Shown one piece after another: positions 10,429-30,056 of a stretch of DNA of 64,000 nt. This stretch comes from Candidatus Nitricoxidivorans perseverans (GTDB lineage: Bacteria; Pseudomonadota; Gammaproteobacteria; Burkholderiales; Rhodocyclaceae). The notes under the pieces were generated by a model. That model was not told the DNA's origin and searched no databases. It saw only the letters and a list, made by a program, of their open reading frames with translations. A program made the translations under genes and the position numbers. Position 1 is the first letter of the stretch; the number at the start of each line of letters is the position of its first letter. Where the stretch lies: NCBI GenBank assembly GCA_030246985.1, contig CP107246.1:560282-624281 (forward strand). Direction: 5' to 3'.

Positions 10429-10432
10429 GCGA
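10395..10432. repeat. Inverted repeat between transposase start and diguanylate cyclase end
   Basis: The 8-bp arms TCGCAGAC (10395-10402) and GTCTGCGA (10425-10432) flank a 22-base spacer. The right arm overlaps the last codons of the cyclase gene. It could be part of the insertion sequence end, its promoter region or a cyclase terminator; the sequence does not decide. Confidence 0.4.
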
Positions 10433-15390: not shown

Positions 15391-15701
15391 GGCGCATCCT
15401 TGCGCCAGGGTTTGAGGCCGAGGCTGTCGGCGCGCCGTGCGATGGCGTAACTGACGCCCGCGCTCGCCGCAAGCATCAGCGGCCAGATGAGCAGGAGTTT
15501 CAGACCGACGGCGATACTCTCCGCTTGCAAGGCGAGTCCCAGCAGCACGAAGCCCAAGCCGAGGTTGTCGGCCTTGGCCAGCGCATGCAGGCGGCTATAG
15601 ACATCCGGAAAACGCAGCAGGCCCAAGGTGCCGGTGGCGTAGAAGAAGGCGCCGACGATCAGCAGAGCGCCGCTGACCCAGGGCAGGATCAGTTCAGTCA
15701 T
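15387..15701 (-). CDS. mrpG: Na(+)/H(+) antiporter subunit G (MrpG)
   Basis: A 104-residue protein with three membrane helices and the family signature GTLGLLRFPDVYSRLHALAK followed by DNLG. The start MTELILPW at 15701 is chosen because a GGGGG ribosome binding site sits 6 bases before it; an ATG two codons upstream is the alternative. It overlaps the end of mrpF by 8 bases. Confidence 0.9.
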   Translation of the reverse strand: MTELILPWVSGALLIVGAFFYATGTLGLLRFPDVYSRLHALAKADNLGLGFVLLGLALQAESIAVGLKLLLIWPLMLAASAGVSYAIARRADSLGLKPWRKDAP

Positions 15702-15960
15702 GGCCATCCCCCTGCCAGGCGCGCTTGGCGAAGGCGACACCGCCGATGGCCGCCAGCAGCGCCAGCACCAGCGCGACATCGACCAGCGCGGGAATGCGCA
15801 TCGCCACAGCCAGCAACACGAGGATGCCCGTGCCGGTAGAGCAGAACAGCAGTGCCACCAGCATGCGGTCGGCCGCCGTCGGCCCGCGCGCCGCCGCCAG
15901 CAGGGCGACGATCAGATTGCCGAGCAGGAACAGCGCGACGGCGAGATCGAGATCGTTCAT
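15694..15960 (-). CDS. mrpF: Na(+)/H(+) antiporter subunit F (MrpF)
   Basis: An 88-residue protein with three helices and the MrpF signature RGPTAADRMLVALLFCSTGT, followed by the helix IPALVDVALVLALLAAIGGV. The length is normal. It overlaps mrpE by 4 bases and mrpG by 8 bases. Confidence 0.92.
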   Translation of the reverse strand: MNDLDLAVALFLLGNLIVALLAAARGPTAADRMLVALLFCSTGTGILVLLAVAMRIPALVDVALVLALLAAIGGVAFAKRAWQGDGHD

Positions 15961-16439
15961 GCGTCAACTCCAAACAGGGCAGCAATGCGTCGCTCCAGCG
16001 CCCGCGCTTCGGCGACGACCGGCAGGTCCTGGTGCAACACGTGCAGGCGCAGCCGTGGATCGGATAACTCAGTAGCCAGTTCGACCCCCAATGTGCCCGG
16101 CATCAGGCCGAGCACATTGGTCAGCAGGATTTGTGGCGCACCGGCGGGCAAATTCAGCGGCAACTCAACGAACGCCGGGTGCAATGCCGCGCGGCCGCGC
16201 AGGGCCATCAGCGCGACTTGCCAGCCGCCACGCACAGAGTTGGCGAGGAAAAAGGCAAGGAAACCTGGCAGCGCGACGAGGCGCAATCCAGGCGCCGCGG
16301 ATGGCCACAGCGCCACGCTCGTCCGGGTCGCGGCTATGACGGCGACACCGCCGAGCAGCCAGCCGTCGAGGCGGCCTTCGGCCAATATCCACCACAGGCA
16401 GGAGAACAGCAGGATGCGCAGCCAGAGGACGCGGATCAT
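15957..16439 (-). CDS. mrpE: Na(+)/H(+) antiporter subunit E (MrpE)
   Basis: A 160-residue MrpE/MbhA family membrane protein starting MIRVLWLRILLFSCLWWILA. The later region with LLTNVLGLMPGTLGVEL and HVLHQDLPVV is the typical MrpE cytosolic part. The start at 16439 is chosen at the first hydrophobic helix. It is the first gene of the complete antiporter module and lies directly behind a copy of the dispersed repeat. Confidence 0.9.
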   Translation of the reverse strand: MIRVLWLRILLFSCLWWILAEGRLDGWLLGGVAVIAATRTSVALWPSAAPGLRLVALPGFLAFFLANSVRGGWQVALMALRGRAALHPAFVELPLNLPAGAPQILLTNVLGLMPGTLGVELATELSDPRLRLHVLHQDLPVVAEARALERRIAALFGVDA

Positions 16440-16657
16440 GGCGCCGTCCCGCCAGCGCCGACTTTCATTCGACCGCAATCAATTCGCGGCCGTCGGCCGT
16501 CGAGTTCGGCCGCCAACTGGCCAGCAGGAAAACAGCGCAGCAGGCTTTCGAATTGGCTCGACTGAAACGCCGGAATGTTCTGGCAAATGTGCGCCTGCAA
16601 CGCGGCGGCGGCAGGAATGTTGGTGGTCCGGAGATTGCGGACGGTCGAGTCGTTCAT
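16436..16657 (-). CDS. Hypothetical protein ahead of mrpE
   Basis: A 73-residue ORF of unknown function starting MNDSTVRNLRTTNIPAA. Its ATG overlaps the stop of the decayed reading frame upstream (ATGA), and its own end overlaps the mrpE start by 4 bases, so it sits in a coupled position. The last residues (KVGAGGTAP) are encoded by the dispersed repeat, so the true C-terminus may have been lost. No membrane helix is seen. It may be the start of a cytosolic protein truncated when the Mrp module was joined. Confidence 0.4.
   Translation of the reverse strand: MNDSTVRNLRTTNIPAAAALQAHICQNIPAFQSSQFESLLRCFPAGQLAAELDGRRPRIDCGRMKVGAGGTAP
16443..16465 (-). repeat. Dispersed 23-bp repeat, copy upstream of mrpE
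   Basis: A 23-bp sequence, on the minus strand AAA followed by GTCGGCGCTGGCGGGACGGC, identical to the plus-strand copy at 24301-24323. It ends 3 bases before the mrpE ATG and encodes the tail of the hypothetical protein in front of it. Confidence 0.75.
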
Positions 16658-16852
16658 GATGTCTGCTTGTCGTCACCGCTGCCGCTCATCAGCGCGCGCA
16701 GGCCGACGTAGGATTCTTCTTCGGTCAGTGGCTTCGCCGCGAGCAGCGCCGCGACGATGCCGATGACGATGGAGGCGATGAGTTACGGCTGGCGCAGCGG
16801 GATGGCGAATTAGCAGGAGCAGCGTGAACTCAGCGAAGACATCATTCATTGG
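16658..16852 (-). pseudogene. Decayed transporter fragment (Kef-type N-terminus joined to another transporter tail)
   Basis: A good start signal (AGGGGGT before ATG at 16849) opens with MNDVFAEFTLLLLI, the usual first helix of Kef/CPA2 antiporters, overlapping the stop of the AI-2E gene. The frame then fails. One frame over, the reading continues as AIPLRQP, a stop, then LIASIVIGIVAALLAAKPLT and a hydrophilic tail ending at about 16657. The LRQP-LIA-IVIGI pattern is that of the second helix of CPA2 antiporters, while the tail resembles the end of a different transporter. The homology is by eye. Confidence 0.5.
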
Positions 16853-17924
16853 CACCCCCTTCGCCATCGTCCTCATTCAAGTGCGTCGCCCATTCCCGCC
16901 ACACCGCCCAAGCCACCGCCAACACCACCGGGCCGGCAAACAGGCCGACCAGCCCGAAGGCGAGAATGCCGCCCAGCACGCCGAACAGCACAACCAGAAA
17001 TGGAATGTCGCCGATGCTGCTGATGAACATCGGTCGCAACACGTTATCGATCTGACTTACCACCGCCGCGCCCCAGAGCCAGACCCCGATGGCCGGCCCG
17101 GTTTCACCCTGCAGCAGCAACCAGGCGCCGGCACTGCCCCAGGCGAGGGGCGTGGCGAAGGGAATCAGCGCGAACAGGGCGGTGATGACGCCCAGCATCA
17201 CCGGCGAACCCAGTCCCGCGACCCAGTAACCCAAGCCGGCTAGGGCGCCCTGCGCGAGCGCCGTGAGCAGGAAGCCGTAAACCACGGCGCTGGTGGTGGC
17301 GCCGATGGCGGCAAGATAGGCGTTGACGCGTGGACCGAGGAAGCGCGCGAGGACATGGCGCAGTTCGCTCACCATGCGCGCGCCGTCGCGGTAGAAAAAG
17401 AACAGGATCATCAGCGCCAGCGCCAGCTTGGCCAGGTTTTTGCCCAACCCACCGGCCAGCGCGGCAGCCTCGCCGGCGTGGTCGGTGAACCAGTTCTTCG
17501 TGGCGGCGATCAAGCCTTGCGGGTCGGCCAGCAGTTCCGCCCGTTTTTGCGCCAGCCAGTCGCCGAGCCAGGGCACGCCCGACAACCAGCCGGGCAACTC
17601 CGGCGGCGCAGCCACGAAGGACTGCATGGCCGGATAGAGCCGGCCAACCTCATTCTGGGCCAGCCAGAGCAACCAGACCAGCGGGACGATCAGAGTCAAC
17701 CCCGCCAGCACGGTGGCCAGACTGGCGGCCAAGGTGTCGCGTCCGCCGCAGCGCCGACGCAGCCGCACCATCAGTGGCCAGGAAGCGTAGGCGAGCACGC
17801 CGGCCCAAGCGAGAGGGGCCAGAAAGGGTGCCATCACCAAGGCAGCCAGTGCGGTCAGGCCGGCCAAGGCGAGCCAGGGCGCAAAGCGACGACCGGGGGA
17901 AGGCGAACCGGGCATTTCAGTCAT
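16842..17924 (-). CDS. AI-2E family transporter (PerM-like permease)
   Basis: A membrane protein of about 360 residues with around eight helices. It has the conserved central loop of the AI-2E_transport family (FFFYRDGARMVSELRHVLAR) and the C-terminal signature PFATPLAWGSAGAWLLLQGE, followed by QIDNVLRPMFISS. Members are linked to autoinducer-2 export, Na/H exchange or unknown export. The start MTEMPGSPSP at 17924 is preferred over a TTG at 17960. It lies 55 bases after a tandem Usp gene and its 3' end overlaps the decayed antiporter fragment. Confidence 0.88.
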   Translation of the reverse strand: MTEMPGSPSPGRRFAPWLALAGLTALAALVMAPFLAPLAWAGVLAYASWPLMVRLRRRCGGRDTLAASLATVLAGLTLIVPLVWLLWLAQNEVGRLYPAMQSFVAAPPELPGWLSGVPWLGDWLAQKRAELLADPQGLIAATKNWFTDHAGEAAALAGGLGKNLAKLALALMILFFFYRDGARMVSELRHVLARFLGPRVNAYLAAIGATTSAVVYGFLLTALAQGALAGLGYWVAGLGSPVMLGVITALFALIPFATPLAWGSAGAWLLLQGETGPAIGVWLWGAAVVSQIDNVLRPMFISSIGDIPFLVVLFGVLGGILAFGLVGLFAGPVVLAVAWAVWREWATHLNEDDGEGGANE

Positions 17925-17978
17925 CGTCGGTCCGGCCGGCGACTGTGGATAACCCTGCAATGCGTCGGCACCGTGCTG

Positions 17979-18851
17979 TCAGACCACCAGCACATCGCAG
18001 GGCGCGTAGTAGGCGAGGAAACGGGAGACGCTGCCCATCACGGCCTCGCCGATGCGCGAGCCGCCATGCTTGCCGACGGCGATCAGGTCGGCGTCCATGT
18101 CGCGCGCGGCGTCCGGCAGCGCAGGATTGGGATCGCCATGGACGATGCGGCGTTCGATGTCGAGTCCGGCCAGTTCGGGGTCGGCCAGCAGCGCGTCCAT
18201 GTTGCGCCGCGCTGCGCGCGACTCAACTTCCGCGTAGCGCAAGATGTCCTCCTCGGGGAAGCCCTTGTAGCGCAGCTTGGCCTCGAAGGGCGCTTGGTAG
18301 GCATGCAGCACCGTGACGCGGGCGGGCGCCGCGACGACGAGAGCAGCGCGTAGCACTGCCTCCGAGCGCGGCCCCAGATCGACCGCCGCTAGCGCGCGGC
18401 GATAGTCGCCCTCGGTCGGCTGTCGCGCGACGAGCACTGGGCAAGTGGCCTGGGCTAGGATGCGCGCCGCCGTGCCGCCGAGGAAGAACTGCTGCACTGC
18501 CCCCTTGCCGTGGGCGCCGATGACCACGAGATCGGGACGGAAGGTTTCGGCTGCATCGGCAACCGCCCGATGCGCCGATCCTTCGACGATTTCGGCACGT
18601 ACCCGCCCGACGCCGGCGGTCCGTGCCGCTTCGACCAGCGCATCAATATTGGCCTCCGCCGCCGCCCGCAGGCGGGTTGGCAGCTTGTCATCCAGGCCGA
18701 AAGCGGCTTCGAGCGCCGACAGCCGCGGGAACGTATGCACGACGAGAAGCTCGGCGCCTTCCCGCGCCGCCAGCAGGGTGGCGCGGCGGACGGCGTCGTT
18801 GCCGAGCCGGGAAAAATCCGTGGCGGCAAGGATTCGCTTGAGGGTGTTCAT
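17979..18851 (-). CDS. Tandem-domain universal stress protein
   Basis: A 290-residue protein starting MNTLKRILAATDFS with a GGGAG ribosome binding site 5 bases before the ATG. Two UspA domains are visible. The first carries IGAHGKGAVQQFFLGGTAAR, the second VGKHGGSRIGEAVMGSVSRF, both fitting the ATP-loop pattern. It heads a transcript with the AI-2E permease, is the fourth usp gene in the island and resembles the tandem gene at 6259-7176 in layout. Confidence 0.92.
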   Translation of the reverse strand: MNTLKRILAATDFSRLGNDAVRRATLLAAREGAELLVVHTFPRLSALEAAFGLDDKLPTRLRAAAEANIDALVEAARTAGVGRVRAEIVEGSAHRAVADAAETFRPDLVVIGAHGKGAVQQFFLGGTAARILAQATCPVLVARQPTEGDYRRALAAVDLGPRSEAVLRAALVVAAPARVTVLHAYQAPFEAKLRYKGFPEEDILRYAEVESRAARRNMDALLADPELAGLDIERRIVHGDPNPALPDAARDMDADLIAVGKHGGSRIGEAVMGSVSRFLAYYAPCDVLVV

Positions 18852-19014
18852 GTTTTCTCCCTGTGAAAAATCGCGTGCGTTTGTCATTGACTATCACCCG
18901 GCATCCGGCTCGCCGAGTTGCGCGAGGCTGGAGTAGGGCCAGCAGCGCACCCAGCAGCAACAGGCCCGATATGCCGTCACGATGCGCCGTCTTCAGGTCA
19001 ACCGTTCGACGTCC

Positions 19015-19233
19015 TTAATTTTCGGCGTCTGTCCCGGCCATGAGCGACTCGATGTCCTTCTCGGCCCGCAGCCAGTCCTCCATCTCCTGACCCGACGAAA
19101 AGCCACGCTGTTCGGCGAGGTAGTAGGCCGCAACGGCGACCATCTGCTCGTGTTCGGTCGGCGTAACACCTGCTTGGACGACCGGCGTTTCCTGCTGTTG
19201 GGTTTCGGTGCTGTTACGTCTCGGCTTTGTCAT
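19015..19233 (-). CDS. DUF2934 domain small protein
   Basis: A 72-residue soluble protein starting MTKPRRNSTETQQQ with a strong GAGGAGA ribosome binding site. Residues 28-62 form the DUF2934 motif AYYLAEQRGFSSGQEMEDWL followed by RAEKDI. Function is unknown; such proteins are frequent near Usp and ion-transport genes. It is 163 bases upstream of the tandem Usp gene and may be cotranscribed with it. Confidence 0.85.
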   Translation of the reverse strand: MTKPRRNSTETQQQETPVVQAGVTPTEHEQMVAVAAYYLAEQRGFSSGQEMEDWLRAEKDIESLMAGTDAEN

Positions 19234-19383
19234 GACAGTCTCCTCTTGAAAGACGACTACGACCCGAGCCGGACCGGGACATCGCCGGCTCCCCACTACC
19301 GCACCGGCTACCTGCTACCCCCGGATGCGTGCTTCTGCGTCGTGCCTGCCACGCGTGGCGTGAGTCGGCATTACGCAAACATC

Positions 19384-19398
19384 CTTGTTCGAAACAAG
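19384..19398. promoter_or_regulatory. Perfect inverted repeat between carbonic anhydrase and DUF2934 genes
   Basis: CTTGTT-CGA-AACAAG, 6-bp perfect arms around 3 bases. It lies after the end of the carbonic anhydrase gene and 151 bases before the DUF2934 start on the minus strand. It may be a compact operator or part of a terminator. No T-tract follows. Confidence 0.35.
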
Positions 19399-19433
19399 TT
19401 CCATCTTGCTTGTAAGGATACTCTCGGTGCTCG

Positions 19434-19928
19434 TCATGGTCTGTTTACCGGCTGGTCAGAGGAACTTGCCCCGATCGGCTCGAAGGCGTTGCGTGTCGGC
19501 TGGTAACTCGGCAGCTCGCCTTGCGCGATGTCGAAATACCTGCCATGCAGATGCATCGCGCCCACCGCGACCCGCTCGGCGATCCAGGGATAGGTCATCA
19601 GGTTTTCCAGCGACACCAGGATGGCCGCCTGTTCGCAGGCTCGCGCCTGCAAAGCGGGTGGCTTGGCTTGCAGCTCCGCCGGCACGCGGGCGAAGCCGCC
19701 GTCCGGCTCGTACGGCGGCACCAGGTTGGCCACGTTGCGCACCACGAACACGTCTCCCGGTGCCGCGCCCATCAGCAGCGCCGGATCCACACGCGAGTCG
19801 GCGCAGGCGATGATCGCGGCTTTGGGGCGTTGTCCCTGCCGAAGCTGTCCGAACAGTTCGAGGTCCTCGCCGAAGTACTTTTCCTGGAATCGCTGGAATC
19901 CGGCGATGAAGTTGGCGATGTCTTTCAC
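19434..19928 (-). CDS. Beta-carbonic anhydrase with internal deletion, probably inactive
   Basis: A 164-residue protein, some 50-60 residues shorter than the family. The N-terminal half is normal, with the zinc-binding CADSRVDP motif (Cys ligand and Asp-Arg dyad) and VVRNVANLVPPYEPDGG. The C-terminal helices (EQAAILVSLENLMTYPWI and HLHGRYFDIAQGEL) are also normal. The central segment, which normally has the GTSAALEYA helix and the second zinc motif HxxC, is missing and the halves join in frame near residue 80. With only one of three protein zinc ligands the enzyme should not hydrate CO2. It ends what looks like the long transcript from floA. Confidence 0.85.
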   Translation of the reverse strand: MKDIANFIAGFQRFQEKYFGEDLELFGQLRQGQRPKAAIIACADSRVDPALLMGAAPGDVFVVRNVANLVPPYEPDGGFARVPAELQAKPPALQARACEQAAILVSLENLMTYPWIAERVAVGAMHLHGRYFDIAQGELPSYQPTRNAFEPIGASSSDQPVNRP

Positions 19929-19982
19929 GTTGAGGCGTCCTGTCGATGGCTGGTCAGATGGAAATGCTTTCGGGGTATGGCC

Positions 19983-20426
19983 CTACCTGGTTTGCGGCGA
20001 GGTCTTTTGTGCCTCGTCGATGGCGTGCTGCGCTTCTGCCGGCATGTAGTTCTCGTCGTGCTTGGCCAGCACTTCGGTGGCCACGAAGCGGCCATCGTTC
20101 CCGATCCGGCCCTGGACGACAGCGCCCTTGCCCTCTTTGAAGAGATCCGGAAGGATGCCCTTGTAGGCGACGGGAACCTCCCTGGCCGTGTCGGTGACGA
20201 TGAACTGGACGGTCAGTCCGTCGCCTTCGCGACGGATGCTGCCCTCCTTCACCATGCCGCCGATGCGGAATGCCTTGTTCCTGGGGGCCTCGTCCGCCGC
20301 AACCTGGGTCGGCGTGTAGAAGAACGCGATGCTGCTGTTCAGGGCGTTGGCTACCAGCGCCGTCGCTAACGACAGCGTGACCAGTCCGCCGGCGATGAGG
20401 GCGATGCGTTTTTGACGTGGTGTCAT
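19983..20426 (-). CDS. ccmE: Cytochrome c maturation heme chaperone CcmE
   Basis: A 147-residue periplasmic protein with one N-terminal membrane anchor (7-30). The heme-binding motif AKHDENYMP is intact, with H123 as the covalent heme attachment residue and Y127. CcmE carries heme from CcmC to the CcmF/H lyase. It normally sits inside a ccmABCDEFGH operon but here is alone between htpX (31 bases) and the carbonic anhydrase gene (54 bases). The rest of the ccm system must lie elsewhere, or this is an extra copy. Confidence 0.93.
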
Positions 20427-20457
20427 TTCCTACTTTCATCCATGAGTGTGCGTGCGT

Positions 20458-21333
20458 TCACTGCCCCGCCTTCAGCGCGGCGATGCGTTCTTCCAGCGGC
20501 GGATGGGTCATGAACAGGCGCTTGATGCCGCCGGCGCCGCCGCCGCTGATGCCGAAGGCCGCCAGCTTTTCCGGCAGGGGCGCGGGGTGCAGCGAATTCA
20601 GCCGTTCCAGCGCGGCGATCATGTTCGACCGCCCGGCCAGGCCGGCACCGCCCCGGTCGGCGCGGAACTCGCGCTGGCGGGAGAAGTACATGACGATGAT
20701 CGAGGCCAGCACGCCCAGCACCAGTTCGGCGACGATCATGGTGACGTAGAAGGCCGGTCCGTGGCCGCGCTCGGTCTTGAACACGACCCGATCCACGACG
20801 TGGCCGATGACGCGCGAGAGGAACATGACGAAGGTGTTCACCACGCCCTGGATCAGGGCCAGCGTGACCATGTCACCGTTGGCGATGTGGGCGACTTCGT
20901 GGCCGATGACGGCCTCGGCTTCGCTTTTCGACATCTGCCGCAAGAGGCCGCTGGAGACGGCGACCAGCGAACTGTTTTTGGTCATGCCGGTGGCGAAGGC
21001 GTTGACCTCGGGCGTGTCGAAAATGCCGACCTCCGGCATCTTGATGCCGGCTTCGGCCGAGTATTTGCGCACCGTTTCCACCAGCCAGAATTCGGTTGAA
21101 TTCGAGGGCGCCTCGATCACCTGCACGCCCATCGCCTTCTTCGCCGACCATTTGGAAATGGCGAGCGAAATGAAAGAACCGCCGAAGCCCATGACGGCGG
21201 CGAAGATCAGCAGCGAGCCGAGGTTGAGGCCGTTGGCATTGAGGTAGGGCTCGACGCCCAACAGGCGCATGGTGACGGACAGCACCAGCACGATGGCCAT
21301 GTTGGTGGCGAGGAAGAGGAAGATGCGTTTCAT
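20458..21333 (-). CDS. htpX: Membrane zinc metalloprotease HtpX
   Basis: A 291-residue inner-membrane M48 protease. Two N-terminal helices (5-25, 37-58) are followed by the catalytic motif HEVAH (145-149), two more helices, and the third zinc ligand in [10 protein letters not shown] (E222). HtpX degrades damaged membrane proteins and is usually induced by envelope stress. It lies 22 bases after the sodium channel gene and 31 bases before ccmE on one strand, inside the floA-to-carbonic-anhydrase transcript. Confidence 0.95.
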
Positions 21334-21355
21334 GGTTTCTCCTTGGCGTTGCGGT

Positions 21356-22219
21356 TCAGCGTGGTGCGGTGCCGGCGGCCGGCAGCAGCGCTTTCAGTTC
21401 GCGGATATCCTCGCGCAGCTGCCGCATCTCGGCGTGCAGGTCGGCCTCGATGTGCTTGCGCGCCGCTTCCACGGCCTCTTTCGCGTCGTGCTGTTCCGCC
21501 TCGGTGTAGCTTTGCATGGCGTTGACGATGATGGCGATGAACAGGTTGAGCATGGTGAAGGTCGCCACCAGGATGAAGGGGATGAAAAATGTCCATGCAT
21601 AGGGGAAGTGCTCCATCACCGGGCGGGCGATGCCCATCGACCAGCTTTCCAGGGTCATGATCTGGAACAGGGTGTAAAGCGAGCGGCCAAGGTCGCCGAA
21701 CCATTCCGGGTGGGCGGCGGCGAACAGGTTGGTGGCGATCACGGCGAAGACGTAGTAAATGATCAGCAGCACCAGGGCGATCGAACCCAGCCCCGGAATC
21801 GCTCCGAGCAGGGCGCCGACCACGCGCCGCATCGACGGCACCATGGTCAGGAGGCGCAGCACCCGCAGCACGCGCAGGGCCCGCAGCACGGACAGCGGCC
21901 CGGTGGCCGGAATCAGCGCGATGGCGACCACGGCGAAATCGAACACGCTCCACGGATCGCGCCAGAAGGCCGCACGGTGGGCGTAGAGGCGCACGGCGAT
22001 TTCGACGACGAACACCGCCAGGATGGCGCGGTCGATGCCGACGATCAGGCCGCCGGCCACCGCCATCGCGCCGGCCGAGGTTTCCAGCCCGAGCAGGGCG
22101 GCATTGAGCAGGATCAGGACGATGACGACGTTCTGCACGCGCGGCTGCTCGATCCAGGCGCGTGCCCGTGCGCGTCCGCCGCTGTCCGGGTTCTCGTTCA
22201 TGTTCACGTTGAGGCTCAT
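21356..22219 (-). CDS. Voltage-gated sodium channel, BacNav family
   Basis: A 287-residue six-helix ion channel. The S4 voltage sensor has arginines every third residue at 113, 116, 119 and 122 within [16 protein letters not shown]. The pore loop is [11 protein letters not shown] with selectivity filter TLESWSM (189-195), the form found in sodium-selective NavAb-type channels; one Glu per subunit forms the tetrameric filter. S6 follows (210-233), and the C-terminus (240-278) is a charged heptad-like coiled coil as in BacNav proteins. The start [11 protein letters not shown] at 22219 is 1 base after the stop of the YqaA-type gene, so the two are cotranslated or tightly cotranscribed. Length and motifs are those of a functional channel. 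Confidence 0.93.
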
Positions 22220-22220
22220 G

Positions 22221-22796
22221 TCAGCGATACGCCAGCAGGCCCATCGCCAGCAGCGCGACGGTGGCCCAGCCGAGGCGATCCACGTAGCGATGCAGCAACG
22301 CTTCCATGCGCGCACCGCCCCAGGCCATCAGGGCGGCGACCAGGAAGAAGCGCGCGCCGCGCCCGATCAGCGAGGCGATGGCAAATGGCAGGAGTGCCAT
22401 GGCAAGCGCTCCGGCCGCGATGGTGAACATCTTGTAGGGAATCGGCGAGAAGCCGGCGATGAAGACCGCCCAGAAACCCCATTCTCCGAACCACTCCACC
22501 GCCGTTTGATAGGCCGGCCAGTAGCGGCTTTCCTGCAACCAGGGCAGCACGGCATCGATGGCGAAGTAGCCGATGGCGTAACCGAACAGCCCGCCGGCCA
22601 CCGAGGTCAGAGTGGTCAGTAGCGCGAGCCACCACGCGCGGCGCGGGTTGGCAAGGCACATCGGCGCCAGCATCACGTCGGGCGGAATCGGAAAGAACGA
22701 GGATTCGGCGAAACTCATTCCGCCCAGGTACCAGGGCGCGTGCGGATGTCGGGACCAGACCATGGCCCGGCGGTAGAGCGGAGAAAACAGTTTCAT
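22221..22796 (-). CDS. YqaA family membrane protein (VTT/DedA-like)
   Basis: A 191-residue membrane protein of the SNARE-associated/VTT superfamily, YqaA branch. It starts with a short amphipathic N-terminus, then GGMSFAESSFFPIPPDVMLA, the conserved helix-breaking segment with Glu and Pro residues, then AGFSPIPYKMFTIAAGALAM, the second family motif, and several helices. Related DedA proteins are tied to lipid transport and membrane potential. It overlaps the small unknown gene upstream by 4 bases and precedes the sodium channel by 1 base. Confidence 0.9.
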   Translation of the reverse strand: MKLFSPLYRRAMVWSRHPHAPWYLGGMSFAESSFFPIPPDVMLAPMCLANPRRAWWLALLTTLTSVAGGLFGYAIGYFAIDAVLPWLQESRYWPAYQTAVEWFGEWGFWAVFIAGFSPIPYKMFTIAAGALAMALLPFAIASLIGRGARFFLVAALMAWGGARMEALLHRYVDRLGWATVALLAMGLLAYR

Positions 22797-23137
22797 TGGC
22801 GGATATCGTGGGACTCGAAAGCCCGGCAGGGTCCGAGGATCGTGGCGACGACCACGGCGTTCTGCACCTCGCGCCGGCTTCCCATCAGTGAGCTCCGGGA
22901 AAAGTGCCGTCGCGGCGGCGCAAGCGAAGTCGCGGGCGCGGCGTTGCGTCCGAACTGGCCGTCGACCGGGGCGAATGCCGCGGGCGCCGCCGGGGCGTCC
23001 TCCGGCACCTCGGGAATTTGCTCAAGACGCTCGTCCCAGGCGGGTTCTTGCGGCACGAATCGCTTCATCAGGTACTGGAACAGCACGACGACCAGAAACA
23101 TCAGCACATAGAGCAGTTCCGTCGGGATATCTTTCAT
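22793..23137 (-). CDS. Small single-pass membrane protein between floA and yqaA-like gene, unknown function
   Basis: A 114-residue protein I do not recognise. It starts MKDIPTELLYVLMFLVVVLF, one membrane helix (about 7-25), followed by a charged stretch, a Pro/Ala-rich linker (about 43-58) and a basic C-terminal half. It begins 11 bases after the floA stop and its end overlaps the YqaA-type gene by 4 bases, so it is part of the floA operon. The layout of a membrane anchor with a disordered cytoplasmic tail would suit a scaffold or flotillin partner, but this is only inferred from position. Confidence 0.65.
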   Translation of the reverse strand: MKDIPTELLYVLMFLVVVLFQYLMKRFVPQEPAWDERLEQIPEVPEDAPAAPAAFAPVDGQFGRNAAPATSLAPPRRHFSRSSLMGSRREVQNAVVVATILGPCRAFESHDIRQ

Positions 23138-23148
23138 GGTGGATCGTC

Positions 23149-24138
23149 CTAGTTCCGTGGGGCGGCAAGCGGCGCGTTATCGGTGCCGGCGATCTCTTCG
23201 CGCATGCTCGTATCGGCCTGCAGGTTCTTCATGCGGTAATAGTCCATGATGCCCAGATTGCCCTGGCGGAAGGCCTCGGCCATGGCGCGCGGCACTTCGG
23301 CCTCGGCTTCCACCACCCGCGCCCGCATTTCCTGCTCCTGGGCAACGGCCATGGCGCGGCGCTCCTCGGCCTTGGCCTGGGCGATCTGCTTGTCGGCATT
23401 GGCCTGGTCGATCTGCAGCTTGGCGCCGATGTTCTCGCCCACCGTCACGTCAGCGACGTCGATCGACAGGATCTCGTAGGCCGTGCCAGCGTCGAGGCCC
23501 TTGGAGAGGACGTGCTTCGAGATGTGATCCGGACTCTCCAGCACGCTCTTATGACTTGCGGAGGAACCGATGGTGCTGACCATGCCTTCGCCAACGCGCG
23601 CGATGATCGTCTCCTCGCCGGCGCCGCCCACCAGTCGGTCGATGTTGGTGCGTACCGTGACCAGGCAGACAGCGATGAGCTGGATGCCGTCCTTGGCCAC
23701 CGCCGCAATCTTCGGCGTCTGGATCACCTTGGGCAACACCGACATCTGCACCGCCTCCAGCACGTCGCGTCCAGCCAGATCGATGGCCGCAGCGCGTTTG
23801 AAGGGTAGGGGAATGTTGGCCTTGTCGGCCGAAATCATGGCGTTGACCACCCTGACGACATTGCCGCCGGCAAGGAAGTGGGCTTCCAGATCGTTGCTGG
23901 AAATGTCGAGGCCGGCCTTCACTGCGCTGATCCGCGCCGTGACCACCGTTGCCGGCGGCACGCGGCGCAGGCGCATGGCGATCAGGGTGAACAGTCCGAC
24001 ATAGGCCCCCGAAGCCCAGGCGGAAATCCAGAGCGGAACGGGCACCAGATACAGGATGAAGGCCAGCCCCGCCACCACCACGAGGAGCAAGCCCAAGCCG
24101 CCCGTCATGCCCGTCATGCCAATCAAGAGTTCATTCAT
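23149..24138 (-). CDS. floA: Flotillin-like protein FloA (YqfA family)
   Basis: A 329-residue membrane-associated scaffold. Two closely spaced hydrophobic segments (about 12-55) form a hairpin anchor. An SPFH/prohibitin-like domain follows from about 60, with conserved stretches [20 protein letters not shown] and [20 protein letters not shown], then the Glu-Ala rich region (about 235-275) that drives oligomerisation. FloA organises functional membrane microdomains and modulates membrane fluidity. A ribosome binding site AAAGGAA lies before the ATG. It is the first gene of a probable seven-gene transcript (floA, small membrane protein, yqaA-like, BacNav, htpX, ccmE, carbonic anhydrase). Confidence 0.93.
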
Positions 24139-24465
24139 TGCATATTCCTTTGTTGCTGATGTGCGGTATTCGCCGCACGACGATTGCCGCGGAAGCCGCG
24201 ACTACTCATTGCTGTTCATGATTCCCGGTAATTGCAGCGGGCCGGCCACGGTGGCGAAGGGACGGTTGGCACGCGGGGCGCGCAAATGGAAAGTCAAACA
24301 AAAGTCGGCGCTGGCGGGACGGCGCGGAGGAAAGTGCCATCCAGCTTGATGCTGCTTATGCCGGCACTTCGGAAAGCTATTTGCCAGATGCATCGGCCGA
24401 AATGCGCCCCAAAAGGACGTATTTCAAATTCCTGATGCCTATCGGCGAAGCCAGAATCGACGCCC
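24139..24465. other. Intergenic junction between host operon and conjugative-element genes
   Basis: These 327 bases have no convincing gene. They separate the divergent floA and traW genes and so must hold the floA promoter. A copy of the dispersed 23-bp repeat lies at 24301-24323. GC content falls towards the traW side, in line with a junction between chromosome and mobile DNA. No integrase, tRNA or long direct repeat was found here. Confidence 0.6.
24301..24323 (+). repeat. Dispersed 23-bp repeat, copy upstream of traW
   Basis: AAA followed by GTCGGCGCTGGCGGGACGGC, an exact 23-bp match in opposite orientation to 16443-16465. It lies in the junction between the floA operon and the conjugative-transfer genes, about 140 bases before traW. 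Confidence 0.75.
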
Positions 24466-25089
24466 ATGTCGGTTCCTGTTTGGCTCTCCTTCCTGCTGGT
24501 TCTGTGGCTGCCGTCGACGGTGCTTGCCATCGATCTCGGATCGGTTGGGCCGACCTATGAAATCGGTGAACCCGACCTGATCGAAGTGATCCGGTCCCGG
24601 TTGCAGCAGATGGCGAAATCCGGGGATCTGGCGCGCAAGCAGGGTGAGTATCGCGACCGTGTTGTCCGGGGAATTGAATCGCCGAAAACGATCTCCGGCA
24701 TCAAGGCGACGCAAATTCCCAGAAGCTTCCATGTCCATCCCGCGATGGTTCTGGCCGGTGATATTCGCAATGCCGAAGGTCACATCCTGTTTGCCAAGGG
24801 AACGCAGATCAATCCGCTGGACCATGTCGCACTGACACGGAAGCTGGTGTTTTTCGATGGCGGGGATAAGCAACAGGTCGCATTTGCCCTGCGATCGATG
24901 GGTGAGTCCGGTAAGGGGGCCAAGCCCATTCTCGTTGGCGGGCAACCCCTGAAGCTGATGCGAAGCTGGAAACGTCCGGTCTATTTCGACCAGGGCGGCA
25001 CGCTGGTCAGGCGGCTGGGTATCCAGCAGGTTCCGGCCATCGTCAGTCAGGACGGCAAGAGGTTACGTATTGATGAAGTCCGTCCGTAA
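24466..25089 (+). CDS. traW: Conjugative transfer protein TraW
   Basis: A 207-residue exported protein with a signal peptide (residues 1-21, cleavage near VLAIDLG). The body has the TraW family layout: a helical GSVGPTYEIGEPDLIEVI segment near the mature N-terminus and a C-terminal thioredoxin-like part with VFFDGGDKQQV and RLGIQQVPAIVSQDG. TraW works in the periplasm with TrbC in assembly of the F-type pilus/type IV secretion channel. Its end overlaps traU by 20 bases. Confidence 0.88.
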   Translation: MSVPVWLSFLLVLWLPSTVLAIDLGSVGPTYEIGEPDLIEVIRSRLQQMAKSGDLARKQGEYRDRVVRGIESPKTISGIKATQIPRSFHVHPAMVLAGDIRNAEGHILFAKGTQINPLDHVALTRKLVFFDGGDKQQVAFALRSMGESGKGAKPILVGGQPLKLMRSWKRPVYFDQGGTLVRRLGIQQVPAIVSQDGKRLRIDEVRP

Positions 25090-26074
25090 GATTTTTCTGG
25101 CGATTCTCGTGGTCGCATCTTCCTCGGCGTGGGCGACAGCCACCTGCACAGGTCGTTTTGCCAACCCTATTACCGACATCTGCTGGAGTTGCATGATGCC
25201 GTTGCGTTTCGGTGGCATGGATCTGTTGTCACTCGATCAGGAAGATACCCCGAACCCGGGCGGTTCCCCGGTTTGCCTTTGTCCATCTCAACTGCGTGTG
25301 GGTTTCAAGGTGAGCTTCTGGGAGCCAGTGCGGCGGGTGGATGTCGTTCGCCGTCCGTTCTGCATGACCAGCCTAGGCGGGATCGAGCTCAATCCCGGAT
25401 TCGATGCGCCACGTGGATCGCGCTTCAGCCAGGACAGCACATCCACGTCATCCTTCTATCAGGTCCATTGGTACGTCGATCCGGTCATTTTTTGGTTGGA
25501 GGCGATCTTCGACAACGCCTGCCTGGAGCAAAGCTCCTTCGATGTGGCTTACCTCACCGAACTGGACCCGATGTGGAACGACGATGAACTGACCTTCATC
25601 TTCAACCCCGACGTGGCGTTGTTCGGCACGCTGCCGGCACGGGCGGCGTGTGCGGCCGACTGCGTGGCCGCAACTACTGGATTTCCATCGAACGCCTTGT
25701 TCTGGTGTGCCGGCTGCCAGGGAAGTCTTTATCCGTTAAATGGCAACGTGCAGGCGCATATCGGCGGCGTGCAGGCCTCCAGCCTGGAAATGACCCGGCT
25801 GATTGCCAAGATGCATCGCGAGGGCCTGATGTGGGCCGCGTCGGGGGAGGACGGTCTCTGCGGGTACTACCCGCAGCCGATCATGGACAAGACCAATTAC
25901 AAGTACCAGATGCTGTACCCGATTCCGCAGACGGAAAAAATCGCCGGAAAGTGTTGTCAGCCATTGGGACGCTCGACGATCTTGTGGGGTGCCGGCAAGG
26001 AGTATCCGTTCGAGGGCGAGGACTTCGCCTACATGGTGTTCCGCAAGCGAAACTGCTGCCAGGGAGCGTTCTGA
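25070..26074 (+). CDS. traU: Conjugative transfer protein TraU
   Basis: A 334-residue exported, cysteine-rich protein with a signal peptide (about 1-22). The mature start CTGRFANPITDICWSCMMPL is the conserved TraU signature. Further cysteine pairs (VCLCPS, AGKCCQPLG, RNCCQGAF) suggest several disulfides, and the length is as expected. In F-like systems TraU is a periplasmic assembly factor needed for DNA transfer more than for pilus formation. It overlaps traW upstream, and trbC starts 3 bases after its stop. Confidence 0.92.
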   Translation: MMKSVRKIFLAILVVASSSAWATATCTGRFANPITDICWSCMMPLRFGGMDLLSLDQEDTPNPGGSPVCLCPSQLRVGFKVSFWEPVRRVDVVRRPFCMTSLGGIELNPGFDAPRGSRFSQDSTSTSSFYQVHWYVDPVIFWLEAIFDNACLEQSSFDVAYLTELDPMWNDDELTFIFNPDVALFGTLPARAACAADCVAATTGFPSNALFWCAGCQGSLYPLNGNVQAHIGGVQASSLEMTRLIAKMHREGLMWAASGEDGLCGYYPQPIMDKTNYKYQMLYPIPQTEKIAGKCCQPLGRSTILWGAGKEYPFEGEDFAYMVFRKRNCCQGAF

Positions 26075-26077
26075 GCG

Positions 26078-26779
26078 ATGCGTCGTTGTTCCGCTCCGAT
26101 TCTGATTGCCGTTTGGTGGAGCCTGGCCACTTCGGTATGGGCGCAAGCCGCGCTACCTACCGATTTCGATGTGCATCAGGCGCAACAGCGAATGCAGGCA
26201 ATCCTTGGCGGGGATGATGGCAAGAAAGTGACGTCTCCCGCTGCGCCTGTTGTTCCCCGTGTGGAGAGCCTACCCAAGCCTGAATCCCGGAAAGCGGATG
26301 TGGGCCAGATCGCCGAATCCTTTCGTTCCTTGCCGATTTCAAAGCCTGCATCGTCAGATCGCGGGCCGGAAGTGATGGTGTTCGTTTCCTTCTCGATGCC
26401 AAAGGGTTCGCTGGAACGCATCGTCGCCGAGTCCGAGCGAACCGGAGCCGTGCTGGTTTTGCGCGGACTGAAGGGCAATTCGCTGACCCGGATGGGGGAA
26501 GAGGTTGCCCAGCTCATCGGTAAGCGTCAGGTGACGGCCATCGTTCATCCACCAGCCTTCACGCAATTCAAGGTGACGCAGGTACCGGCACTGGTCTTGG
26601 CGAACTCGTCTCAGGCAACGCGGATCGGCACGGATGGCTGTGCATCGCCGTCCAGTTTCGTGAAAGTCGATGGTGATGTCAGCCAGGGCTATGCGCTCGA
26701 TCTCATCGAGCGTCAGGCCCCCGCATGGTCGGAAGTCGCCAGGCGCTTTGCATCAAAGCTGGAGGAGCGTCGTCCGTGA
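26078..26779 (+). CDS. trbC: Conjugative pilus assembly protein TrbC (F type)
   Basis: A 233-residue exported protein with a signal peptide (about 1-23). The first part after it is low-complexity and Pro-rich. The C-terminal domain is thioredoxin-like, with MVFVSFSMPKGSLERIV and VTQVPALVLANSS, the TrbC_Ftype pattern, but without a CXXC active site. TrbC interacts with TraW during pilus assembly. It sits in the conserved traW-traU-trbC-traN order and its last codon overlaps the GTG of the following gene. Confidence 0.9.
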   Translation: MRRCSAPILIAVWWSLATSVWAQAALPTDFDVHQAQQRMQAILGGDDGKKVTSPAAPVVPRVESLPKPESRKADVGQIAESFRSLPISKPASSDRGPEVMVFVSFSMPKGSLERIVAESERTGAVLVLRGLKGNSLTRMGEEVAQLIGKRQVTAIVHPPAFTQFKVTQVPALVLANSSQATRIGTDGCASPSSFVKVDGDVSQGYALDLIERQAPAWSEVARRFASKLEERRP

Positions 26780-27975
26780 GCATGCGCAACCTGATCTTGC
26801 TGGCGTGTGTCCTGATCGCCGGTACAGCCATTGCGCAAGGCTACGATGCATCAACCGCTTTCAGTGACGGACGCTCATTAGGGTCCGGAGCCATCGGTGG
26901 AGCGCAGCAGGGGATCGGCACGACAAACGCGACGGCCGTTGTTCCCGGCTACGGACAAGCCACCAGCCAAGCCGGTCTGTTTCAGGGGGGCATGGGGCAA
27001 CTCTCGGGGCCGGGCGTGTCCAAAGTCATGGACTGTTCCAGCCAGACACCGGATGCGGACGCATTTCGGCGACAGGAGTGTGATGCCGTCAATTTTGTTG
27101 CGCGCAACCCGAGCGTGCGCCCGGCATTCTCGATTGACCGCGCCACCGATCCCCTGATCACCCGGAACAACGCCATTGCCGCCAACCCGGCCATTCAACT
27201 CACCGGCGTCAATATCGGCGCGGCGACCGAGCAGTGCCGTGTCGTTACCCAAACGACCCCGGCGGTGTTCTCGACCGAGATCTGTACCGAATACCGGCCT
27301 GTCACCAGCAACTTCTGTTCGACCGCGCGCCAGATCAGTGTTGATCAGCATCACCTGTATCAATGCGTCGAGCAGATGCAGACCATGAGCAACGCCAGTT
27401 GCTACATTGGTCAGCAGATCGCGGTCAGTACGAGCTACAACTACCAGTGCAACCAGACCGTTCAGGGATACGAGACATTGAGTTGTCGCCGCGGTGTCTC
27501 GGCGACCGTTGGTTTTGGTCAATGTACCCCAGGAGCCTGGCTGGGCAGGACGGCATTCATGGATTGCAGTTGGTGCGTCGATCCCTACATGGCTATGAAC
27601 GTCTTTTGCGGCAGCAATGGTCGCTCGTATGAGGTCGAGCCATATCGATCCTACGATGGGGTGAATCGCTACGACTATAACTGGATCGGTTACCCATGGA
27701 ACGGCAGCTATGGCCGCTTCCCTGTGGCGGTGGCGCCAGGACAGTCCGTGACCGACTACTACGTCAGCAATCTCGGGTTCGGCTGCAACCTCTATGTCTA
27801 TTTCAGCGTCAGTTGCAGCAGCACTACCTGCACCCCTTCGATGCGTAATGTCAGTTCTGGATGCAACTCATCCGGGGGGGCCGGGACGGGGGCACCCTTG
27901 CAATTACCGATGTCCAAGACGGTCAGCAGCTGGACCTCGAATGAGTGCGCCACCCTGCAACAGCGAGCACGCTAA
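26776..27975 (+). CDS. TraN N-terminal half, separate cistron
   Basis: A 399-residue exported protein. The GTG at 26776 follows a GGAGGAG ribosome binding site 8 bases away; ATG at 26782 (MRNLILLACVLIAGTAIA) is the alternative. Both give a signal peptide. The mature region has a Gly-rich start and many cysteines. Stretches such as AVVPGYGQATSQAGLFQGG and FRRQECDAVNFVARNPSVRP look like the N-terminal half of SXT/R391-type TraN, as judged from memory of the family. The stop shares a base with the next start (TAATG), so the two halves are translated together. TraN acts at the outer membrane in mating-pair stabilisation. Confidence 0.75.
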   Translation: MSMRNLILLACVLIAGTAIAQGYDASTAFSDGRSLGSGAIGGAQQGIGTTNATAVVPGYGQATSQAGLFQGGMGQLSGPGVSKVMDCSSQTPDADAFRRQECDAVNFVARNPSVRPAFSIDRATDPLITRNNAIAANPAIQLTGVNIGAATEQCRVVTQTTPAVFSTEICTEYRPVTSNFCSTARQISVDQHHLYQCVEQMQTMSNASCYIGQQIAVSTSYNYQCNQTVQGYETLSCRRGVSATVGFGQCTPGAWLGRTAFMDCSWCVDPYMAMNVFCGSNGRSYEVEPYRSYDGVNRYDYNWIGYPWNGSYGRFPVAVAPGQSVTDYYVSNLGFGCNLYVYFSVSCSSTTCTPSMRNVSSGCNSSGGAGTGAPLQLPMSKTVSSWTSNECATLQQRAR

Positions 27976-30056
27976 TGCGATTACTGCTTCTGGTCATCGC
28001 CGTTCTCTTTGGTCTGAGCCCTGTTGCGCGGGCGGGCGATTGTCGTCTTGAGAGTTCGACCTGTGTCGATACCTCGGCGAGCAAGACAATTTCAGGCGTG
28101 GTCGTCACGCTGGCGGATGTCGGGGGCTGCTGGGAGTTTCAGGACAACTACACCTGCATCAAGCCCAACTCCATCGACTACTGCTCGGCATTGACGGCGG
28201 CAGGGTGCGGTCAGACCAGTTCGATATGCAGCGATACCGCGTTCAACGGCACGTGCAATACCTACACCAAGACCTTCCGCTGTGGCACCAGCCAGGGAAC
28301 CCCCACCAATACGGTGAGGCTCGACAACACCTACACCCTGGTGACGGATACGACCAATACGAGCCAATGTTCGTCCTATGCGCAGAATTCCCGTTGCCGA
28401 CTGTCGGCGCATACCTGCGTTGATTCCACGCCCTGCAAGCTCGATTCGAGTGGGGCGACCGTGTGTCTGGCAGGCGTCACGCCACCGGTGGGGGGATTGA
28501 ATTCCACGGCCACCTGCTGGCGGTATCAGGATGATTACTCCTGCATCGCCGACAACCACATCGACTACTGCGCGGCCATCAAGGCGACGCAAGGGTGCGC
28601 TCAAGTCAGCGCCACATGCGACAGCACGGCCTTCGATGGCTCCTGCAACCAATATACCCGGCGCTATCAATGCACCAACGTCACCGCATCGACCTCGACG
28701 CCGACCGTCGTCGAACTAAATACGTCCTATACGATCACGTCCAACACGCTGAATACCAGTCAATGCGCGTCGTATGTCGACAGCGCAAATTGTGTCCATG
28801 CCGCAACCACATGTACCGATAGCACCCCCTGCAAGACGATCAATGGCCTGCAAGTCTGCCTGACGACGGTCTCGCCATTGCCAAGCGGGGCGCAAAGCGC
28901 GGGTGATTCCTGCTGGACGCGTACCGAGGACTACACCTGTGCCGGAGCGACGCTGACGAACGATTGCCAGCCATTGATCGATCGGGGCTGCACGCCGGTT
29001 TCCTCACAATGCATCGATCCCTTGCCTACGGGGGGCTGCGACATGAGCGAGCGAACGTACTCATGCCAGACCTCGCCCGCAACACAGACCCAGCAAACCG
29101 TTTGTGACCAGCGGTCTTTCTGCCAGGGAGGAACCAACTGCTTTGATACCAGCAATCCGGCGGATCAGGACTTCGGACGTGCCATGGCATCGATGGAAGC
29201 CGCTCGGGAGGCCGGGGTTTATGGGGAGGATCTGCGTCTGTTCAAAGGGGTGGGAGAACGATGCCGGAAGAAACTCTTCGGCCTGGTCGATTGCTGCAAG
29301 AAGAGCGGTGGCGGTGCGGCGCGATCCAATCACAACATCATGGCTACCGCCATGCAGGGCGTCATGATCGGCGGGCAACTGGCGATCAATGCAGGCAGCA
29401 AGTACATGTTCGACTTTATGTACCCCGAGTTCACCAGTTATGTCGAAGCCGGTGCGCAGGCCATGATTTCCTCGGAGGTGCTGTTCACCCCGACGAATTT
29501 CCAACCGTCCTTCACGTTTTACGGACTGACCCTCTCGACCGGTACGGTCAGTAGTGGATTGCTGGGCGGCCCCATTTATTCAATAGGATCTCTCGGCAGC
29601 TTCAATTTCTACTTCGATCCGTATTCACTGGCGGCAGCCGTAGCGCTCCAGCTCCTGTCCGAGTTGTTGTCCTGCGAGCAATCTGAACAGATGCTGGGGA
29701 TGCACCGGGATGCCAACCTGTGTGTCTTTGTGGGTTCCTACTGCTCTTCGCGTATCCCCATCATCAAGACCTGCATCGAGCAAACCCAGTCCTACTGCTG
29801 CTTCAACTCCCGACTGGCCAAGATCATCAATGAGCAAGGCAGGGGGCAGGTGGGAAAGACTTGGGGCAGTGGCGAGAACCCCGACTGTTCCGGCTTTACC
29901 ACCGCCGAATTCGAGCAACTGGATTTCTCCCGAATCGACATGAGCGAGTTCATCCAGGAAGTGGCATCCAGCGTGCGAATGCCGGATGTGTCGTCCTTCG
30001 GACAGAACGTCCAGACCTCCGTTCAACAGCGTGTGAATAGCTACTACAACCGATGA
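27975..30056 (+). CDS. traN: Conjugative mating-pair stabilisation protein TraN (C-terminal portion)
   Basis: A 693-residue exported protein with a signal peptide (1-20). The first 350 residues consist of about three tandem Cys-rich modules, each with a C-W-x5-Y-x-C core (GCWEFQDNYTC, TCWRYQDDYSC, SCWTRTEDYTC) and conserved spacing. The C-terminal region has the TraN hallmarks LFGLVDCCKKSGGG, YCCFNSRLAKIINEQGRGQV and DCSGFTTAEFEQLDFSRID. TraN binds recipient outer-membrane receptors. It starts at the TAATG overlap with the previous gene. Tandem repeats in the exposed part could alter recipient range. Confidence 0.9.
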   Translation: MRLLLLVIAVLFGLSPVARAGDCRLESSTCVDTSASKTISGVVVTLADVGGCWEFQDNYTCIKPNSIDYCSALTAAGCGQTSSICSDTAFNGTCNTYTKTFRCGTSQGTPTNTVRLDNTYTLVTDTTNTSQCSSYAQNSRCRLSAHTCVDSTPCKLDSSGATVCLAGVTPPVGGLNSTATCWRYQDDYSCIADNHIDYCAAIKATQGCAQVSATCDSTAFDGSCNQYTRRYQCTNVTASTSTPTVVELNTSYTITSNTLNTSQCASYVDSANCVHAATTCTDSTPCKTINGLQVCLTTVSPLPSGAQSAGDSCWTRTEDYTCAGATLTNDCQPLIDRGCTPVSSQCIDPLPTGGCDMSERTYSCQTSPATQTQQTVCDQRSFCQGGTNCFDTSNPADQDFGRAMASMEAAREAGVYGEDLRLFKGVGERCRKKLFGLVDCCKKSGGGAARSNHNIMATAMQGVMIGGQLAINAGSKYMFDFMYPEFTSYVEAGAQAMISSEVLFTPTNFQPSFTFYGLTLSTGTVSSGLLGGPIYSIGSLGSFNFYFDPYSLAAAVALQLLSELLSCEQSEQMLGMHRDANLCVFVGSYCSSRIPIIKTCIEQTQSYCCFNSRLAKIINEQGRGQVGKTWGSGENPDCSGFTTAEFEQLDFSRIDMSEFIQEVASSVRMPDVSSFGQNVQTSVQQRVNSYYNR

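Follow-up and report, generated by a model that had tools for sequence, protein, structure and literature searches.

A voltage-gated sodium channel homologue, FloA and HtpX in a probable mobile stress island of Rhodocyclaceae

We analysed 64,000 nucleotides of Candidatus Nitricoxidivorans perseverans, a member of the Rhodocyclaceae (contig CP107246.1, positions 560,282 to 624,281; this whole stretch is called the window below), in which a gene for a voltage-gated sodium channel homologue of the BacNav type stands in one cluster with genes for the flotillin-like protein FloA and the membrane protease HtpX. In our view, held at a probability of about 0.6, the cluster is a segment of an island of ion-homeostasis and envelope-stress genes that moves horizontally and is shuffled in Rhodocyclaceae and their neighbours, and that would serve the Na+ cycle and membrane quality control. 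Many relatives have a divergent NhaR-type regulator at the head of an array on one strand, made up of cassettes each of which can be missing or lie elsewhere: a ribosome hibernation factor (HPF), TerB, TerC, a universal stress protein, a Bax1-I (YccA-like) protein, FloA with a small companion, a VTT-domain protein, BacNav and HtpX, and further CcmE, a carbonic anhydrase, universal stress proteins, Mrp, KefB, a Na+/Ca2+ exchanger, a Ca2+-type ATPase and an SbtA-like protein. The window's copy has no NhaR at the head of its array. Selection seems to act on the island as a unit and not on the pair of FloA and channel.

All seven genes of the cluster lie on the minus strand and are given here in the order of transcription, floA, small, VTT, channel, htpX, ccmE and carbonic anhydrase, with 11, -4, 1, 22, 31 and 54 bases between successive genes:

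23149 to 24138, minus strand: floA, flotillin-like protein FloA, 329 aa (Pfam FloA 506.8 bits; NCBIfam NF010186 above cut-off)
22793 to 23137, minus strand: small single-pass companion of FloA, 114 aa (alignments, AlphaFold)
22221 to 22796, minus strand: VTT-domain membrane protein, 191 aa (Pfam VTT_dom 45.4 bits, cut-off 33.9)
21356 to 22219, minus strand: BacNav-type voltage-gated channel, 287 aa, ATG at 22219 (Pfam Ion_trans 140 bits; alignment)
20458 to 21333, minus strand: htpX, membrane protease, 291 aa (Pfam Peptidase_M48 131.8 bits; NCBIfam NF003965 433 bits, cut-off 245)
19983 to 20426, minus strand: ccmE, 147 aa (Pfam CcmE 130.1 bits; NCBIfam NF009729 above cut-off)
19434 to 19928, minus strand: probable beta-carbonic anhydrase remnant, 164 aa (Pfam Pro_CA 81.1 bits in two pieces; alignment to the copy of locus L139)

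An earlier description made from the letters of the window (the sequence-only reading) had claimed seven co-directional genes with gaps of at most 54 bases, the small, VTT and channel genes lying within 1 to 4 bases of one another; both statements are correct, the latter as an overlap of 4 bases and a gap of 1. Pfam, and in part NCBIfam, bears out the families of all but the small protein, and the naming of HtpX and CcmE agrees with the NCBIfam matches. For the VTT protein, which the sequence-only reading had called YqaA-type, Pfam gives the general VTT domain, and the match to UptA of NCBIfam lies far below the cut-off. The htpX of the cluster is a second copy, with a 57% identical paralogue at C1:2320634 of the same genome.

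The recurrence of cluster genes around the channel exceeds chance. We annotated 109 distinct channel loci with 19 proteins of the window and 11 proteins of relatives, and set the close loci, in which the channel is at least 72% identical to that of the window (n=32), against the more distant ones (n=77). All 32 close loci appear in the channel searches, L133 and L136 having first been retrieved via floA; the channel matches of genomes G548 (81% over 154 aa) and G560 (76%) were left out of the 32. Within 5 kb and on the strand of the channel, the close loci carry htpX in 16 cases, the Ca2+-type ATPase in 15, HPF in 14, Bax1-I and TerC in 13 each, TerB in 11, floA, the small gene and a CBS gene in seven each, VTT in six, ccmE in five and the carbonic anhydrase in four, and NhaR lies within 5 kb on either strand in 11. 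Among the 77 distant loci the same distance holds HPF and htpX once each, TerC three times and NhaR four times, whereas floA, the small gene, VTT and the ATPase are found at none. The difference is likewise seen where 5 kb are available on both sides of the channel (close vs distant: htpX 12/21 vs 1/53, floA 4/21 vs 0/53, ATPase 11/21 vs 0/53, HPF 12/21 vs 0/53). Within 10 kb of the 32 close channels 183 island-gene matches are co-directional with the channel and only four opposite, those four at 22-61% identity; omission of the five loci that supplied reference proteins leaves 123 and four. The NhaR-type regulator is opposite to the channel strand in 14 of 14 cases.

Several cassettes of the relatives can be named with the help of profiles. 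The divergent LysR protein of L133 passes the NhaR equivalog cut-off of NCBIfam (245 vs 219 bits) and its TerC passes the TerC/Alx cut-off, while its HPF lies just below the NCBIfam cut-off and above that of Pfam; for the Bax1-I protein of L136 the NCBIfam match is the FtsH modulator YccA, at 249 vs a cut-off of 353. In L052 (11717-12999) the island carries, beside the channel, genes for an SbtA-type Na+-dependent bicarbonate transporter and a PII-like protein, which suggest a link between Na+ and bicarbonate.

The sequence-only reading had also stated that an adjacency unique to this genome would speak against it. Our neighbourhood survey finds the order floA-small-VTT-channel-htpX-ccmE again in L042 (Candidatus Accumulibacter) and L133, with variants in L043, L044, L045 and L136. 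This recurrence and the tight spacing of the small, VTT and channel genes are what one would expect from a dedicated module, in which the channel, with the small protein as a subunit, would sit in a microdomain built by FloA and be policed by HtpX. Such a coupling of flotillin and channel as a system of its own, the central proposal of the sequence-only reading, appears improbable to us: floA is near the channel in just seven of the 32 close loci, and L139 has floA-small-VTT-htpX-ccmE-carbonic anhydrase at 80-98% identity, that is, everything but the channel, and for these two reasons we reject a FloA-channel complex as the principal explanation. L137 and L138 further have nfeD-floA-small with no channel on the stretch examined, and the gene that the small gene follows is floA, not that of the channel, in these two loci as well as in L043, L044, L045, L132 and L136. 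A candidate channel remnant in L139, a tblastn piece of 39% identity, is in our view an artefact of the 32-residue upstream extension of the query, which overlaps the VTT gene. The 67-bp gap of L139, used as a query, matches no channel gene, and loss of the channel there is therefore indistinguishable from its never having been present.

The small protein has no family match in Pfam or NCBIfam. It is not peculiar to this operon: it is a companion found downstream of floA, in the place that yqfB has in Bacillus subtilis. It directly follows floA in nine of the ten floA genomes of the family sample, and in the tenth (G776) no sequence follows a floA that is itself truncated. As it accompanies FloA, nothing marks it as a channel subunit. 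Its alignments give an N-terminal transmembrane helix, a disordered linker and a conserved C-terminal segment, Q-x-x-x-V-x-A-x-I-L-x-PCRA; the AlphaFold model (mean pLDDT, the confidence score of the model, 59.8) has a helix at 6-27 with high pLDDT, values below 50 at 40-73 and a helix of low confidence at 81-106. Near 7907-8842 of L189 a C-terminus resembling that of the small protein stands ahead of VTT-channel-htpX with no floA match adjoining.

In B. subtilis the operon is yqeZ-floA-yqfB, as given in the available text of PMC8144471. This NfeD-FloA-YqfB arrangement of Bacillota resembles ours in that the gene after floA codes for a single-pass protein whose C-terminal segment is conserved and that NfeD precedes FloA in L045, L137 and L138; it differs in that the window has lost NfeD except for some last codons, and the small protein is likened to YqfB by position and layout. 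With a profile of the whole small protein, the three best of 177 open reading frames (ORFs) from five plasmid records are those after floA in Paenibacillus, Acetoanaerobium and Listeria, at weak scores (E 0.0026, 0.072 and 0.11). With the C-terminal part alone, the Paenibacillus ORF comes first, an unrelated Listeria ORF second and the correct Listeria ORF eighth, and the Acetoanaerobium ORF is absent among the matches listed. In both Bacteroidota floA loci examined, floA is followed not by the small gene but by one for a nucleoside phosphorylase. It is possible that the Bacillota ORFs are counterparts of the small protein, which we infer to be YqfB-like from its place and layout.

By its sequence the channel is a one-domain voltage-gated BacNav homologue with a Na+-type filter, and an ordinary one: the alignment gives the filter TLESWSMG and spaced S4 arginines. 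The TLESW filter and the S4 arginines mark Na+ selectivity and voltage sensing. The filter is present in 37 of 41 channel ORFs of the first relatives, two of these being the window channel's own copies, and phmmer against solved structures reaches E 2.6e-79 with 5hvx, listed as 'Ion transport protein' and presumably NavMs, and 4e-74 with 6p6w, whose chain is named NavAb; the NavAb-like filter claimed earlier is thus there. The likeness to NavAb and NavMs-type channels extends over the whole channel, the TLESWSM filter and the S4 arginines, and the difference lies in the genomic setting.

Of the 369 genomes in the class sample, 99 have the channel (E 1e-30), as do 69 of the 395 in the family sample (E 1e-60). 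The gene floA is rare in the family sample, which has it in 10 of 395 genomes, the nine others being 89-98% identical to the window copy; the class sample has it in one of 369, the window's own. Five of the ten floA genomes have a channel within 5 kb (G000, G750, G687, G761, G601) and three on a different contig (G516, G698, G498); two, G708 (81% complete) and G776, have no channel match at E 1e-60. The assembly G750, with a stated contamination of 6%, contains three different channel-bearing copies of the island (L133, L185, L195). In a maximum likelihood tree of 105 channels, 26 of the 28 island-labelled ones fall into one group of 35 (support 99/92), and the island label changes eight times, compared with 24.9 in shuffles.

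The cluster DNA itself bears marks of rearrangement ahead of floA:

24139 to 24230, minus strand: leader of floA with two scars, the tail of a Bax1-I (YccA-like) gene (GIMNSNE-stop) and then an nfeD tail in another frame
24301 to 24323, plus strand: one of the copies of a dispersed 23-nt repeat, immediately past the Bax1-I scar

Compared with the complete nfeD of L045, the nfeD scar is a DNA match over 29 bases at 97%, and it is common to L132, L133, L042 and L043; short Bax1-I tails ahead of floA also occur in L132, L042 and L043. A complete nfeD stands directly before floA in L045 (by Pfam) and in L137 and L138 (by similarity to L045), while in the window only the C-terminal scar remains. 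A unit of nfeD, floA and the small gene may have lost nfeD and joined Bax1-I, of which the window copy would then have lost the greater part. The repeat, AAAGTCGGCGCTGGCGGGACGGC, has 18 copies in the genome at up to 2 mismatches (0 for the backward control), and in seven relatives (L046, L052, L133, L184, L185, L188, L196) it lies just before Bax1-I. A search for a shared cassette-end sequence gave none common to all gene boundaries among the 20 of 43 direct-repeat families listed for 1200-24300.

Such deletions and scars could also be left by an integration and recombination hot spot that merely gathers independent stress genes, their adjacency being functionally meaningless. The variable order, with 13 different pairs of left and right neighbours among the 23 close loci that have a recognised neighbour on both sides, fits this explanation, as does the position of the repeat, 16 of whose 39 copies are intergenic although only 14.5% of the sequence is (12 of the 23 intragenic copies are native sequence of the Ca2+-type ATPase). 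Hitch-hiking would nevertheless leave unexplained why one functional set keeps returning on a single strand (183 to 4) behind one type of regulator (NhaR, opposite in all 14 cases), and why the partners are mostly genes for Na+, Ca2+, K+, H+ and membrane proteins. We regard it as rather unlikely, though the weightiest of the alternatives.

Several points weigh against the island as we propose it. The Fisher p-values for close vs distant loci (htpX 1.4e-9, floA 1.1e-4, ATPase 5.6e-10) overstate the difference, since the cut at 72% was chosen after the data had been seen and the loci are related and non-independent. The only distant locus with htpX, L047, has a channel of 71.8% identity, just below the cut, and the distant loci L073 and L118 also have island-like neighbours; vice versa, three of the 32 close loci (L142, L144, L201) have none of the listed neighbours within 5 kb. 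Well-supported branches of the channel tree force at least five changes of the island label, which indicates that the association was gained or lost several times and leaves a single origin unsupported. A search of the window's genome with the NhaR protein of L133 at E 1e-15 found none, an empty result that carries no weight by itself since the search had no positive control. The scan of 16500-24700 for sigma-70-like promoters found zero (1.2 expected by chance), so that co-transcription is inferred from spacing alone, and the promoter and terminator scan of the cluster was uninformative. Finally, the beta-carbonic anhydrase named by the sequence-only reading is present as a Pro_CA gene but is probably dead, because an in-frame deletion of 165 bp has removed 55 residues including the GHAQCGG segment, as seen against the 224-aa copy of L139; the 214-aa copy of L046 has kept this segment. 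The H and C of the deleted segment are zinc ligands of beta-carbonic anhydrases.

How the island may have reached its present place is suggested by its surroundings. Some 14-15 kb ahead of the window, guaA has a tyrosine integrase gene behind it. The last 12 bases of guaA (L153:4578-4589) and the three preceding ones recur at 33501-33515, and close to each of these two guaA-end sites there is a 31-bp repeat (90%, E 2e-4); together these findings suggest an element of about 48.9 kb, integrated at guaA, whose inferred boundaries enclose the whole cluster. It contains four copies of the 23-nt repeat (24301-24323, 16443-16465, 14039-14061 and 4004-4026), the last being native P-type ATPase sequence. 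Its right part includes the following:

24466 to 30056, plus strand: partial F-type conjugation module, TraW-like, TraU, TrbC and TraN (Pfam; TraW match just below cut-off)
33501 to 33515, plus strand: 15-bp repeat of the guaA 3' end, ATCGAGTGGGAATAA, the proposed right end of the element (E 0.045 alone)

A gene for a HipA-like kinase (31159-32508; Pfam HipA_C) is found near the right end, and L153:6565-6894, also inside the element, is a 109-aa ORF whose match to a solute-binding protein family is confined to the family's second half. Of 72,556 plasmid records 76 have a match, and in none of them does a single place span 80% of the cluster.

Past the carbonic anhydrase gene the array continues on the minus strand, in this order:

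19015 to 19233, minus strand: small DUF2934 protein, from its ATG, the ORF opening at 19296 (Pfam 57.4 bits)
17979 to 18887, minus strand: tandem universal stress protein (Pfam Usp, two stretches)
16842 to 17960, minus strand: PerM / AI-2E family transporter (Pfam)
11252 to 16478, minus strand: Mrp/Mnh-type Na+/H+ antiporter genes, MnhE, MrpF, MnhG, MnhB, a chain-4L-like subunit and two Proton_antipo_M subunits (Pfam above cut-off for all seven subunits tested; ORF 15148-15390 left out)
10422 to 11255, minus strand: GGDEF gene
9376 to 10383, minus strand: DDE transposase gene
7173 to 8882, minus strand: KefB/KefC-like CPA2 antiporter (Pfam; below the NCBIfam KefB and KefC cut-offs)
6259 to 7176, minus strand: tandem universal stress protein (Pfam Usp, two stretches)
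5333 to 6262, minus strand: Na+/Ca2+ exchanger (Pfam Na_Ca_ex 156 bits)
1887 to 4607, minus strand: P-type ATPase, probably for Ca2+ (best NCBIfam match PMR1-type Ca2+-ATPase, 754 bits, cut-off 798; Pfam)
804 to 1436, minus strand: CBS-pair protein (Pfam CBS, two stretches)

The transposase and GGDEF genes (9376-11255) separate the KefB-like gene from the Mrp genes. The setting of ion exchangers and membrane quality control that the sequence-only reading had seen around the channel is supported, and it is wider than that reading had it.

With this content the array recalls tLST, a mobile stress island of beta- and gamma-Proteobacteria that has an HtpX-like protein, KefB and xenologous second copies according to the available text of PMC8290217, and the htpX of our island is a second copy as well. 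Both are mobile islands with envelope and protein-quality genes, among them htpX-like and kefB-like ones (here KefB/KefC-like and below cut-offs), and with xenologous copies. What sets the window's island apart is FloA, the voltage-gated channel and a set of ion transporters, namely Mrp, a Na+/Ca2+ exchanger and a Ca2+-type ATPase; the relatives add TerC and NhaR to this. A tie between the cluster and tLST is nonetheless highly improbable, and we reject membership on two observations: YfdX has no match in the genome (the control in E. coli was positive), and, as regards the hsp20-clpG/K core of tLST, the only Hsp20 of the genome (C1:2156329) is far outside the island, ClpG/K, FtsH and HdeD not having been profile-searched. 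The words 'flotillin' and 'rhodocycl' have no occurrence in the available text of the tLST paper.

If the cluster belongs to a mobile ion and envelope-stress island, its parts could act together as follows. Na+ or alkaline stress would lead to a depolarisation that opens BacNav, and the entering Na+ would feed Mrp and Na+/Ca2+ exchange, by which pH and Ca2+ would be held. FloA and its small companion may hold unfolded membrane clients, of which HtpX would remove those that fail. The channel would then belong to the ionic half of the island and FloA, small protein and HtpX to its quality-control half; channel and FloA may share a regulon and not necessarily a complex. Precedents are found in the available text of earlier studies. 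Nav channels of alkaliphilic Bacillus readmit Na+ for cation/proton antiporters including Mrp (PMC4225499), FloA and NfeD of Staphylococcus aureus hold unfolded clients in membrane microdomains (PMC11222466), in B. subtilis FloA, HtpX and FtsH are among the proteins that co-purify with those of the TerC family (PMC10246235), and a multicopy SPFH protein rescues the loss of ftsH and htpX in E. coli (PMC2636767). In its Na+ cycle, run by NaVBP or NsvBa together with Mrp, alkaliphilic Bacillus likewise joins a BacNav inlet and an Mrp antiporter in one cell; the difference is that here the genes of channel and Mrp are neighbours in the island of a Gram-negative bacterium that is not known to be alkaliphilic.

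Among the matches listed in our literature search, in which most subscription journals were not covered, no title or abstract reports a gene neighbourhood of BacNav with flotillin or with htpX. It may be, though we put this somewhat short of even odds, that the cluster stands for an undescribed, NhaR-headed mobile island. BacNav would there let Na+ into a complete Na+/H+/Ca2+ circuit in a regulated way, and the same package would hold flotillin-HtpX quality control of membrane proteins and ribosome hibernation.

BacNav channels are standard models of channel structure, and to our knowledge little has been learned of what they do for the cell outside alkaliphilic Bacillus. The repeated company of BacNav with Mrp, Na+/Ca2+ exchange, a Ca2+-type ATPase, NhaR and quality control offers a concrete hypothesis on this role, and relatives whose clusters are much alike but have or lack the channel amount to a natural experiment. 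Our analysis also points out a conserved and as yet unnamed companion protein of FloA, and it suggests that tLST has a counterpart in a second family of mobile stress islands. If such an island exists as proposed, cells would gain an excitability-like tolerance of ionic stress in one step, and its cassettes would recombine as interchangeable modules.

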